From Hypomesus transpacificus (Eukaryota > Chordata > Actinopteri > Osmeriformes > Osmeridae): a stretch of 64,000 nt of DNA. Location: NCBI RefSeq assembly GCF_021917145.1, contig NC_061061.1:12324889-12388888 (forward strand), in the 5' to 3' direction. Shown piece by piece: positions 1,026 through 62,492 of this stretch. The position numbers were made by a program, and so were the translations under genes. The notes beneath the pieces were generated by a model. That model was not told the DNA's origin and made no database searches. It saw only the letters and a program-made list of their open reading frames with translations. The first letter of the stretch is position 1. Each line of letters begins with the position of its first letter.

Positions 1026-2893
1026 CTACAGGGAGCTGAAGAACGCCAGCAGGCCTGTGTCTGGCGAAGGGTGAACCAACAGCTTCTGGATCTGCAGATA
1101 CACACACACACACAGACACACAGACACACACACAGACACACAGACACACACACAGACACACACACACACACAGACACACACACACAGACACACACACACC
1201 ATCTCAATGGTCTTCTACAGGTCATATTCAGGTCATACATTATATCAACACTTGTAGGAGCGACTACACTGGAATACTTTGTCCTTATAGTATTGACCCT
1301 GTATAATCCTACCATTGGGGTACTCATTTCTATTGGACTCCTTTGTTAGAGAACGTGTTTAGCCATATGTTCTGATCTACGGCATCATTTGATGTCAGCT
1401 GGATGGTAAGTACCTCCTTAAAGCAGGGGTGTTTGGCATCTTGGACCAGCTGCAGCAGAACAGCTTCTGTGGTGGTGAGGAAGGCTCCACTCTGTCTCAG
1501 TCGAGACAGCGCAAACAACCTGTCTGTCTGACTGGAGAGAGAAAGAACAACCTGTCTGTCTGACTGGAGAGAGAGAGAACAACCTGTCTGTCTCACTAGT
1601 GAAAGAACAACCTGTCTGTCTGACTGGAGAGAGAGAGAACAACCTGTCTGTCTGACTGGAGAGAGAAAGAACAACCTGTCTGTCTCACTAGAGAGAGAAA
1701 GAACAACCTGTCTGACTGGAGAGAGAAAGAACAACCTGTCTGTCTGACTGGAGAGAGAAAGAACAACCTGTCTGTCTGACTGGAGAGAGAAAGAACAACC
1801 TGTCTGTCTGACTGGAGAGAGAAAGAACAACCTGTCTGTCTGACTGGAAAGAGAAAGAACAACCTGTCTGACTGACTGGAGAGAGAGAGAACAACCTGTC
1901 TGTCTGACTGGAGAGAGAAAGAACAACCCCGTCAGTCTGACTGGAAAAAGAAAGAACAACCTGTCTGTCTGACTGGAAAGAACAACCTGTCTGTCTGACT
2001 GGAAAGAGAAAGAACAACCTGTCTGTCTTCCTAGACAAACAAAGAACAACCTGTCTGTCTGTCTGTCTGTCTGACTGGAGGGAGGAACAAATATGATCCA
2101 GAAATCCAACATCAATCTGCAGCACCGAATTCACTGTACATACTGTAAACGGGCATTTTCAAACTGTCAGCTGATGATGTCGTGACACTGTGTGATACCT
2201 TCTAGAGGAGACGGCATCCGCCACAATGTGGACTTCTACGCCACTCTCCAGCAGGTCAAAGGTCGTGCACTGATGACAAGACAGACTGGATGAGTCAAAA
2301 GAACAGAATCCATTTGAAGGAACCGCTCGACTCCTCGTCCTCTGAGCATGACATCAAGTTAACGTGGGCCGCGTCCTCACCGCGATACAGGCCTGGGTCT
2401 CGATCCCACACAGGATGGCTTGCTTGGGGCTCCCCAGGGCCCGCAGCTCCTCCTTCACCTCCTCCGTCAGCATGGTGAACTTGGTCTTGTCGTAGGCCGG
2501 CAGGTCCCCGGCGCCCAGCTCTGGCACGGTGGGGCCCAGGCCCCTGGGGTACTGCTCGGTCACGATGGGGGGGATGCCCAGGACCCGGCTAGCCTGCAGG
2601 GACGGAGAGGGGAGGCAGTCAGTTTGGGGGGGGGGGGGGGGTTTGACCCCCCTAATTAAGACTTGGACTCCCCCAAAAGAGGTCAAACAACAGGTCAGGG
2701 GGGTCGATACATTATTAATATATCGTGCTTACCTGTAATCGTAAATATTACTTTACACCCTAGAGAAGAAGTTGACCCCCCGACTGTCATTGTATAACGT
2801 AATAGCACTCTGTAGGCAACACAGCTGTTGCATAAACTCAGACAATCTTTACTTCTCTGAACTGCCTGGGTTCATGTTAGCTGCACAAAGCTT

Positions 2894-25835: not shown

Positions 25836-26225
25836 AAAAAGTACAATGCATATAAATTCATGTACAAAGACAGGATTACATGTTATTCTTAAAACCTTCT
25901 TCTTCTTGATTTATCATGACAAGTAGCCATTTTGTAATATTTAGTAATGCATTATACAGTAACGCAATCAAGGTCAAATATTACCTGCGTTGTCTTTTCT
26001 CATCTTTTCCATCTGTCTCTGGGTGACCGACAGCTGGACCCTCTGTTTCACCACCATGTCTCTCAGAGCCTTCAGTTCAGTCAGGATGGCATCATCGCTC
26101 ATGCAGCCTCCTGTTTGTGGTTTACCGAGATGGTTCTTGTTGTTGTTCTTTAGGCCCCCTGTGCCGTCTCCCTGGCCCCGTGTCACAGACAGACAGAGCA
26201 GCAGAACCACGTTAACAATCTTCAT
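25151..26225 (-). CDS. Secreted C1q-domain protein, cluster copy 1 (no coiled-coil exon)
   Basis: Three exons, minus strand: 25985-26225, 25582-25710, 25151-25437, summing to 218 aa. The signal peptide is [17 protein letters not shown]. The N-terminal segment contains a short heptad-like region ([19 protein letters not shown]), followed by a C1q/TNF-like jelly-roll domain ([69 protein letters not shown] at the C-terminus). Teleosts have many such C1q-like lectin-type genes, often immune-linked; function here is inferred only. Unlike copies 2 and 3 it has no coiled-coil exon. A piece of one (GCCCTGGAAACCAGACTAG, minus strand, near 25740) runs straight into the next intron end, so exon 1 must join the C1q exon directly; phases allow this. 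Confidence 0.88.
25795..25832. repeat. (TA)n microsatellite
   Basis: About 18 TA units in the first intron of C1q copy 1. Confidence 0.9.
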
Positions 26226-26270
26226 CCTGAAGGGTAGCAGAGTGTTGTCACCCTCAGTGTTCAGTCCCTG

Positions 26271-28169: not shown

Positions 28170-28448
28170 GGAAGCCAGTCTCAACAGGTTAAGAGGATGG
28201 TTAGCCAGTCTCAACAGGTGAGGGGGATGGTTAGCCAGTCTCAACAGGTGAGGAGGATGGTTAACCAGTCTCAACAGGTGAGGAGGATGGTTAGCCAGTC
28301 TCAACAGGTGAGGAGGATGGTTAGCCAGTCTCAACAGGTGAGGAGGATGGTTAGCCAGTCTCAACAGGTGAGGAGGATGGTTAGCCAGTCTCAACAGGTG
28401 AGGAGGATGGCTAGCCAGTCTCAACAGGTGAGGAGGATGGTTAACCAG
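28170..28448. repeat. 30-bp minisatellite with donor-like motif
   Basis: About nine copies of a 30-bp unit, CCAGTCTCAACAGGTGAGGA plus GGATGGTTAG. Each copy contains CAGGTGAGG, a good match to a 5' splice-site consensus on the plus strand. Because 30 is a multiple of three, a frame stays open on both strands. Confidence 0.95.
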
Positions 28449-29312: not shown

Positions 29313-30542
29313 TTACATGGGGAAGAGAAGGAAACCACTGAAGGTGTTGTAATTCCAAATGTCATCAAACAGGCCGAAGCCTGATGGAAGACGCATCATA
29401 ATCATATCTCCCTGCTCCAGTTCCAGAGTGACAGCATTTGACGCATAACTCCATAGACCGTTATTAAGGATATGGATGACCATGATCTTGTGGTCGTTCT
29501 TCAACATTTGAACTCCTGCCTTCGTTTTGGAACGACGGCCGTCCGCGGCAGTAAACCTGAAGTAGTACACTCCTCTCACTGGTGCTGTGAACGCACCTGA
29601 AGAGGGGCAGGAGCAAAACATTTAGTTTCACTGTGATTGAAATGTTGACTGATGAGTAGAGACCCCCAGTGTTGGAGCTACTCTGATGTCAAGGTGTGTG
29701 CTCTAGGTGAGCATATCCAGAACTGTACCTGTTACTGGGCTGTAGGCGTTGCCTATGTTGGTGAAGACTTTGCTATAGACCAGTGATGTGTCAGTGTTGA
29801 AGGGCCCAACATTTCCTGAATCAGTTAGACCCACGGAGAATGCCACCTTTGGTCTGCCTGTTAATAACATGTAGAGATGCTGAATATGATAGCCAGGTAG
29901 TGCAGCATTATATTGGTGTGGGAAGAACAGTCTGTATTTACCCTCATTCTCTGCCTTCAGTTCTTCCACGTGATGTTCACTGAGACTTAGTCTGGCTTCC
30001 AGGGCTACGCATACAGAATGAAGCATGAATAAATGTATGAGTCTACAACATTTATTTCCATTATTGTCTCAAAACTATGTTCACCATTACCTGAGTTCTC
30101 TGTTACAAACATGTAACAGAAAGTAAAATGTCAATAAATATATACATATGTATATAAAGAAAAGGTACAAGGCACATAAATCCTTATACAGGTTTAGATG
30201 TTTTTCTTAAAACCTTCTTGTTCTTGATTTATCATGACCAGTAGTGATTTTGTCATATCTAGTAACACATGATACAGTAACGCAATCAGGTCAAATATTA
30301 CCTGCGTTGTCTCTTCTCATCTCTTCCACCTGACTCTGGGTGACTCTCAGCTCAACCTTCTGTTCCACCACCATGTCTCTCAGAGCCCTCAGTTCAGTCA
30401 GGATGGCACAATCGCTCCCATGGCCTCCTGGTTGTGGTTCACCCAGACTGTTCATGGTGTCGTTCTCTTGGCCCCCTGTGCCGTCTCCCTGGGCCCGTGT
30501 CACAGACAGACAGAGCAGCAGAACCACAGTATCAATCTTCAT
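29313..30542 (-). CDS. Secreted C1q-domain protein, cluster copy 2 (one coiled-coil exon)
   Basis: Four exons, minus strand: 30302-30542, 29942-30004, 29729-29857, 29313-29596, giving 238 aa with consistent phase-1 junctions. Start chosen at [14 protein letters not shown] because it aligns with the other copies and gives a proper signal peptide; an in-frame ATG 30 nt upstream exists. The 63-bp second exon encodes a coiled-coil segment (ALEARLSLSEHHVEELKAEN), followed by an 84-bp intron and a C1q domain ([56 protein letters not shown]). In the first intron a broken remnant of the other coiled-coil exon (GAGTTCTCTG, near 30093) matches copy 3. Role inferred as a secreted trimeric C1q-like protein; nearest named relative not determined. 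Confidence 0.9.
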
Positions 30543-30587
30543 CCTGAAGGGTAGTAGAGTGTTGTCACCCACCGCGTTCAGTCCCTG

Positions 30588-34784: not shown

Positions 34785-36965
34785 TTACATGGGGAAGAGA
34801 AGGAAACCACTGAAGGTGTTGAGATTATTAGAATGATCATTCAGGCTGTAACCTGATGGAAGACGCATCATAATCATATCTCCCTGCTCCAGCTCTAGAG
34901 TAACAGCATTTCCCACATATTTCCGTTGATTGTCGTTGTAGGAGACATAATTGAACATGATATGGACGTCGTTCTTGTACATTTGAACTCCCAGTCTTCC
35001 AGAACTACGGTAGTCACTGGCAGTAAACCTGAAGTAGTACACTCCTCTCACTGGTGCTGTGAACATACCTGAAGAGGGGCAGGAAAAAAAGGAAAAAACA
35101 ACATTTAGTTTCACTGTGATTGAAATGTTGACTAATGAAGGTGAGCATATCCAGAACTGTACCTGTTACTGGGCTGTAGGCGTTGCCTATGTTGGTGAAG
35201 ACTTTGCTATAGACCAGTGATGTGTCAGTGTTGAAGGGCCCAGCATCTCCTGAATCAGTTAGACCCACGGAGAATGCCACCTTTGGTCTGCCTGTTAATA
35301 ACATGTAGAGATGCTGAATATGATAGTCAAGTAATGCAGCATTATATTGGTGTGGGAAGAACAGTCTGTATTTACCCTCATTCTCTGCCTTCAGTTCTTC
35401 CACGTGGTGTTCACTGAGACTTAGTCTAGCTTCCAGGGCTACTCATACAGAATGAAGCATGAATTAATGTACGATTCTACAACATTTATTTCCATTATCG
35501 TCAAAAAAAATATGTTCACCATTACCTGAGTTCTCTGTGTGTAGATCTTTGACCTCTCCTTCACTGGCTGCCAGCCTGGCCTTCAGGGTGACAAGATCTG
35601 CAACCTGGGCTTAAAGGTCAAACATGTAACAAAAAGTAGAATGTATATCTTCATAAATATACATAAAGAAAAGGTACAGTACATATAAATCCATGTACAA
35701 GAAGGTCAAAGATCATAAATATCATACATTTATATTTACATATATATAGAAATGTTGAATATGATAACCAGGTAGTGCAGCAGTATATTGGTGTGGGAAG
35801 AACAGTCTGTATTTACCCTCATTCTCTGCCTTCAGTTCTTCCACGTGGTGTTCACTGAGACTTACTCTGACTTCCAGGGCTATGCATACAAAATGAAGCA
35901 TGAATTACAGCCTTAAATAACAGTATCCTGATTCAAATAATGCTTTGAAATGCTGTAAGATTCATCCCATTATCGTCTCAAAACTATAGTCACCATTACC
36001 TGAGTTCTCTGTGTGTAGATCGTTGACCTCTCCTTCACTGGCCGCCAGCCTGGCCTTCAGGGTGACAAGATCTGCAGCCTGGGCTTAAAGGTCAAAGATC
36101 ATAATTTAAGAAATCAATAAATCATTTTTTGATGAAGAGGGTCAGTGTACATTCATGAACATTCATAGGGAGTCAGGTGGCTGAGTCAGGTGGCTGAGTC
36201 AGGTGGCTGAGTCAGGTGGCTGAGTCAGGTGGCTGAGTCAGGTGGCTGAGCATCGGGCTAGTAATCTGAAGGTTGCCAGTTCGATTCCCGTTCGATTCCA
36301 CATGACGTTGTGTCCTTGGGCAAGGCACTTCACCCTACTTGCCTCGGGGAGAATGTCCCTGTCCTTACTGTAAATCGCTCTGGACAAGAGCGTCTGCTAA
36401 ATGACTAAATGTATTTAATTTAACATTAAAATGTAAATGCACCCAATTATAGCCAAAAGGCTAGTTTCCATTGGCAGTCCCCCTGCCAGATTGAAAAAAG
36501 GCTATACAACCTAAAAGAAAGGCATAAAGTGAAAATGGTACAATGCATATGAATCCATGTACAAAGACAGGATTAACTCTTTTTAAAACCACCTTCTTCT
36601 TGATTTATCATGTCATAGCTAGTAATGCATGACACAGTAACGCAAACAGGTCAAATATTACCTGCGTTGTCTTTTCTCATCTCTTCCACGTGACTCTGGG
36701 TGACTGACAGCTGGTCCTTGTAGTCCGATAGCTGGTCCTTGTAGAACTGTAACTGAGTCTGGGTGACTCTCAGCTCAACCCTCTGTTCCACCACCATGTC
36801 TCTCAGAGCCCTCAGTTCAGTCAGGATGGCACCATTGCTCACGCTGCCTCCTGTTTGTGGTTCACCCAGACTGTTCTTGGTGTCGTTCTCTGGGCCCCCT
36901 GTGCGGTCTCCCTGGGCCCGTGTCACAGACAGACAGAGCAGCAGAACCACAGTATCTATCTTCAT
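34785..36965 (-). CDS. Secreted C1q-domain protein, cluster copy 3 (four coiled-coil exons)
   Basis: Seven exons, minus strand: 36662-36965, 36000-36083, 35817-35879, 35526-35609, 35376-35438, 35163-35291, 34785-35068. All internal junctions are phase 1 and sum to 336 aa. Signal peptide [17 protein letters not shown]. Exon 1 is 63 bp longer than in the other copies (adds a FYKDQLSDYKDQLSVTQ repeat). Two exon types alternate twice: 84 bp (AQAADLVTLKARLAASEGEV) and 63 bp (ALEVRVSLSEHHVEELKAEN). Both are heptad-rich, so the protein should have a long trimeric stalk before the C1q head ([40 protein letters not shown]). The 84-bp exons use an AAG acceptor with a poor pyrimidine tract, so their use may be variable. 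Confidence 0.88.
36168..36436 (+). mobile_element. tRNA-derived SINE with expanded A-box region
   Basis: Same family as 23153, but the head contains six tandem copies of a 14-bp unit GAGTCAGGTGGCTG spanning the A-box. The B-box side (CCAGTTCGATTCCC) and the tail (CTGGACAAGAGCGTCTGCTA) are intact. In intron 1 of C1q copy 3. Confidence 0.88.
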
Positions 36966-37010
36966 CCTGAAGGGTAGTAGAGTGTTGTCACTCTCCGTGT
37001 TCAGTTCCTG

Positions 37011-57709: not shown

Positions 57710-62492
<4,783 letters not shown>

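Follow-up and report, generated by a model that had tools for sequence, protein, structure and literature searches.

A 32-bp minisatellite spanning the intron 3/exon 4 junction of an isoc2-like gene in Hypomesus transpacificus

The isoc2-like gene and its junction array

We analyzed a 64,000-nucleotide stretch of the Hypomesus transpacificus genome (hereafter the window), which carries on its minus strand an isoc2-like gene whose five joined exons (3155-3028, 2593-2381, 2269-2199, 1531-1414 and 1091-1026) give a 197-residue open frame, the gene start not being included. The joined protein matches the Pfam Isochorismatase family at 4.1e-30 and PDB 2b34 (MAR1) at 9.2e-56. Exon 3 (2199..2269, 71 nt), which ends in ...TCTAGAAG, and exon 4 (1414..1531, 118 nt), which starts with TCAGACAGACAGGTTGTT, were placed using the joined frame together with the 2b34 alignment, and the sequence shows one GT donor for intron 3, at 2197..2198 (AAG|GTATC). 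With the acceptor at 1531, the 2b34 alignment runs ungapped across the exon 3/4 junction and through SSR|SQTDR, supporting donor 2198 and acceptor 1531 as the pair that gives the conserved protein; based on this continuity, we place the pyrimidine tract and AG of the presumptive working acceptor at 1532..1551. The isoc1-like gene on contig 128 has a continuous coding sequence over the corresponding SSRS..DR stretch, with no intron there. We also searched the genome for a retrocopy of the isoc2 mRNA, as a possible record of the acceptor used, and found none among the eight matches, which were the five exons of the isoc2 gene itself and three matches in the isoc1-like gene.

The end of intron 3 (minus strand, 2074-1514) is a 32-bp minisatellite, reported by TRF at 1514-2065 with a period of 32, 17.7 copies, 88% matches and a score of 850. 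Its consensus unit joins 14 nt of intron end (CTTTCTCTCTCCAG, a pyrimidine tract plus CAG) to an exact copy of the first 18 nt of exon 4, and the unit thus spans the intron-exon boundary. A scan for the motif [C/T]AG|T[C/G]AG recognized 17 acceptors, 15 with CAG and 2 with TAG (2074, 1998, 1972, 1940, 1907, 1875, 1843, 1811, 1779, 1747, 1715, 1687, 1655, 1623, 1595, 1563 and 1531), to which inspection added a decayed one at 2030 (TAG|GAAG), bringing the number of acceptors in the array to 18. The splice signal is therefore kept in 17 of 18 units, partly by construction as those 17 were defined by the motif. Taken together, TRF, the motif listing and the unit alignment delimit an array of 18 units at 1514..2074, the last of which is exon 4's own first 18 nt. 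These results bear out the anatomy given in an earlier note on this DNA, which had described a minisatellite of about 18 copies of the exon-4 acceptor, each made of a pyrimidine tract, CAG and the first 18 bases of the exon, behind one donor at 2198.

That note had also called the acceptors near-equivalent, and six upstream sites (1907, 1811, 1779, 1747, 1715 and 1655) indeed share every letter with the 1531 site between -20 and +3. No scoring confined to that stretch could tell them apart, and if 1531 were used exclusively, local strength would not be the reason. The donor-side acceptor at 2074 has its own pyrimidine tract (at 2075..2094, AG included) and, between -20 and +3, departs from the 1531 site at 6 of 23 positions; its unit shares 57-66% identity with the other 16 compared. 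Relative to the consensus, the 17 full units carry 20 substitutions, with indels in five, and units 1843-1747 are four successive identical 32-mers. The identical inner 32-mers and the strongly divergent first unit look like minisatellite turnover, although the edge-versus-interior pattern is not clean: the exon-side edge is consensus-like, and the deletion-bearing inner units 1998, 1715 and 1623 score below 2030. None of the 20 substitutions falls on a unit's final AG (about 1.25 expected by chance), a count that is uninformative on conservation because the units were themselves defined by their AG.

Two further repeats were observed within the same gene. In intron 4, 8 nt separate the end of a CA/CAGA array (1100-1199) from the exon-5 acceptor at 1091, making this the second isoc2 acceptor to lean on a tandem repeat, and the stop-codon region (979-1033) is a short tandem duplication (GGGATGAGCGGGGCTCCTACA-type).

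Origin of the array and repeat content of the genome

Searching the 437-Mb genome with a 29-nt probe of the unit (at most 2 mismatches), we obtained 12 matches, all 12 inside the isoc2 array, which indicates that the repeat grew from this junction and is local rather than dispersed. Simple sequence flanks the junction on both sides, as a TC-rich tract and as a (CAGA)n run at the exon 4 start, and could plausibly have seeded slippage. Slippage or unequal exchange would then have copied 14 nt of intron and 18 nt of exon about 17 times toward the donor. The original intron end may survive in the donor-side copy at 2074, in which case the intron before expansion would have measured about 124 nt, ending GTTCCTCCCTCCAG|TCAGACAGACAGG; a candidate branch-point A at 2112 (TTGAT), located upstream of the array by a yTnAy scan, may belong to this older intron.

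We additionally calculated how much of the surrounding genome consists of such arrays, counting those with a unit of 14-120 bp present in 4 or more copies. Arrays cover 7% of the window and 13% of a 200-kb sample made up of twenty 10-kb stretches from C2 (0.1 to 3.34 Mb), a sample that comes from a single contig, is not a random draw and is perhaps subtelomeric. The 12 introns of isoc2 and of a second gene in the window, u2af2, hold 10 TRF arrays (score at least 50, dinucleotide repeats included), one of which crosses a splice junction. In a genome this rich in arrays, a junction-spanning one is unsurprising and needs no special explanation. Within the sampled stretches (L017-L036), minisatellites reach 37% of a single 10-kb piece (L027) and are sparser in L029-L036, a fall in density that perhaps reflects a subtelomeric gradient.

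Across 264 kb, 7 of 92 arrays are acceptor-bearing in having at least 12 pyrimidines among the 14 nt before an AG, one of these being the isoc2 array. By eye, no exon directly adjoins the arrays at L017:1838, L018:5985, L019:2841 and L021:8130; the one at L021:1 runs off its sampled piece, and the one at window position 60020 scores on the minus strand within the plus-strand u2af2.

The u2af2 gene itself (plus strand, 59607-62486), which we named by inspecting its translation, is separated from isoc2 by about 57 kb, and we take its product to be U2AF65, the reader of acceptor pyrimidine tracts. Its 8 introns contain 7 tandem arrays, 4 of which begin 4-12 nt past a donor (60020, 60454, 61445 and 62136). 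Under random placement within introns, such donor proximity has P = 0.001 with a 12-nt limit, 0.008 with 20, 0.03 with 30, 0.06 with 8 and 0.2 with 4, the limit having been picked after viewing the data. Elsewhere in the window, a plus-strand array at 28173-28448 (30-bp unit, 9.2 copies) carries a donor-like motif, CAACAG|GTGAGG, in each consensus unit and gave no Pfam match in the two frames tried, and three similar minus-strand open frames (26001-26270, 30318-30587 and 36678-37010) perhaps represent, judging by eye, a small cluster of secreted C1q-like genes.

Reading frame and choice of acceptor

As the earlier note had it, the exon-4 frame stays open across the whole array, and we find it open from 2130 onward; the three frames contain 0, 4 and 2 stops across the array, the exon-4 frame being the one without any. 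Where that note had counted two in-frame upstream acceptors (1747 and 1843), we find five among the 16 recognizable ones, adding 1687, 1972 and 2074, so that its interpretation holds for the anatomy and fails on this count. In the order 1687, 1747, 1843, 1972 and 2074, these sites lie 156, 216, 312, 441 and 543 nt from 1531 and would add 52, 72, 104, 147 and 181 residues. The other 11 of the 16 lead to early stops, and the decayed site at 2030, 499 nt from 1531, is out of frame. Transcripts with early stops are subject to decay under the 50-nt rule, by which 9 of the 11 frameshifted forms should decay; the forms from 1655 and 1595, whose stop at 1420 adjoins the last junction, might escape.

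To gauge the open frame, we kept the observed indels and scattered the 20 substitutions randomly over the array, and the exon-4 frame remained open in 0.19 of 20,000 trials (any frame in 0.37). At such a chance rate the open frame is not evidence of use or function, and we rejected it as evidence of selection; the simulation gave no sign that selection has kept the array open, as would be expected of a regulated switch, and the earlier note's idea of a hypervariable splicing switch finds no support in the present analysis. The translated array gave weak Pfam matches to DUF4116 and Ncstrn_small, which look like repeat artefacts.

We consider it probable that the isoc2 array is a passive mirage-type minisatellite, with splicing mainly from 2198 to 1531, and it has no demonstrated function. 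This reading draws on the observed anatomy and position of the array, the uniqueness of the probe and the continuity of the protein, as well as on the array-rich genome, the published mirages and the human CBS junction, and from these we infer the choice of splice site. The copies would stay intronic, with donor 2198 still joined mainly to 1531, the copy attached to the remainder of exon 4. Exon definition would favor the short 118-nt exon with real downstream sequence, as at the human CBS junction, where the distal copy is spliced. Occasional use of upstream copies would amount to splicing noise, with 11 of the 16 recognizable sites yielding early stops, nine of them positioned for decay, and with the five in-frame sites inserting 52-181 residues into a conserved fold. 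Leakage to upstream acceptors, or use of the in-frame 2074 site, is less likely.

A stronger form of such leakage, in which many acceptors are used appreciably and the mRNA is spread over a range of mostly frameshifted and decayed forms, would let copy number tune the amount of functional enzyme. The six exact copies of the 1531 site and the early stops that follow most upstream sites both fit this account, but the closest published cases are described as splicing regularly (PMC3087553, PMC3902484, PMC2630376), and we regard it as fairly unlikely. We regard as unlikely, too, the proposal that about 18 near-equal acceptors behind one donor yield proteins with 0, 52, 72, 104, 147 or 181 extra residues alongside decaying frameshift forms, in a ratio varying with repeat number between individuals, a series made possible by the branch-point match and the frame of the first site.

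The same first site would be central if the array were itself exonic, the candidate branch point at 2112 driving splicing to 2074 to give an exon 4 of 661 nt with a 181-residue in-frame insertion. The A at 2112 fits the branch-point consensus at a distance of 37 nt from the AG of 2074, no other AG intervening, and the 543 nt from 2074 to 1531 are in frame and free of stops. The first AG after a branch point is generally the one used, a rule that would favor 2074, and the closest yTnAy match to 1531 is 68 nt off (A at 1600), with AGs between. The lack of a near match at 1531, set against the match and the frame at 2074, is however weak counter-evidence to the use of 1531, as real branch points often depart from consensus. 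The insertion would moreover fall inside a stretch that aligns ungapped to distant homologues, the open frame is unsurprising in light of the simulation, and the inserted peptide mixes all three unit frames, making an exonic array very unlikely in our view. Finally, although tandem arrays are prone to mis-sizing in assemblies and this assembly shows a single haplotype for the unit, misassembly of the array or of its copy number is extremely improbable given the substitutions and indels that distinguish the units and the continuation of both array edges into intact gene sequence.

The locus constitutes a natural competing-splice-site experiment, in which many acceptors, several of them letter-identical, vary in how far they lie from the branch point and from the true exon. 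Its junction reads would tell which of these two distances decides the choice of site. The locus is also an example of how an intron might grow through a minisatellite while the protein stays visibly unaltered.

Comparison with known systems

The isoc2 array is not new in kind, as mirage-type, acceptor-side repeats have already been published, and it is notable among mirages for its many short, near-identical acceptors. The lancelet "mirages" are described as minisatellites repeating an intron end plus an exon start that leave regular splicing undisturbed (PMC3087553, PMC3902484), and of the Adh and TnC mirages it is stated that they 'do not generate aberrant mRNAs' (PMC3902484). Like the isoc2 array, these cases (BflGb6/BflGb9 and Adh3, PMC3087553; PGBD5 and TnC, PMC3902484) are presented as tandem repeats over an intron-exon boundary, with splice signals kept in many units, and the BflGb6 unit as reported combines the 3' end of an intron with the 5' part of exon 2 (PMC3087553). 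Homogenized units inside the cluster are also described for the mirages, a pattern that the isoc2 array shows less cleanly. They differ in scale, BflGb6 being given units of 150-160 bp in 6 or 3 copies in two haplotypes (PMC3087553), against 32 bp and 18 units in isoc2, while the stated sizes are 10-72 bp for Adh3 units (PMC3087553) and 60 and 108 bp for the PGBD5 repeats (PMC3902484). They differ also in that RT-PCR and length variation are reported for lancelet, and in that the isoc2 array lies in an isochorismatase gene of another genome.

In rainbow trout irak3, the start of an exon is reported to be repeated four times upstream of that exon in intron 4 (PMC6763605), compared with 17 extra copies in isoc2, and the description of those repeats leaves unstated whether each has an acceptor or is used. 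Human CBS offers two parallels, as outlined in PMC2630376. The 844ins68 allele duplicates the intron 7/exon 8 junction and thereby sets up competing sites, the distal one being strongly favored and giving normal mRNA, but it is a single 68-bp duplication, and the source speaks of donors, although the sites at such a junction are acceptors. The 31-bp CBS VNTR, c.1444_1467+7(16_21), resembles the isoc2 array in its roughly 30-bp unit, its 16-21 copies and its coordinates over an exon end and intron start, yet lies on the donor (exon-end) side and is polymorphic in people (PMC2630376), whereas the isoc2 array is on the acceptor side. The suggestion of the earlier note that splicing may tolerate competing acceptors fits both the lancelet mirages and CBS 844ins68.

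Human segmental duplications are likewise reported to contain tandem repeats at the exon-intron boundaries of paralogues, with 27 intron modifications (PMC2812944). Those repeats share with isoc2 a mean unit of about 30 bp at exon-intron boundaries and an altered gene structure, and differ, according to that account, in averaging about 4 units and in coming from recent paralogues with transcript evidence (PMC2812944). To the few examples so far described, namely the lancelet mirages, the four-copy trout irak3 repeat and human CBS, the isoc2 locus adds one with many copies.
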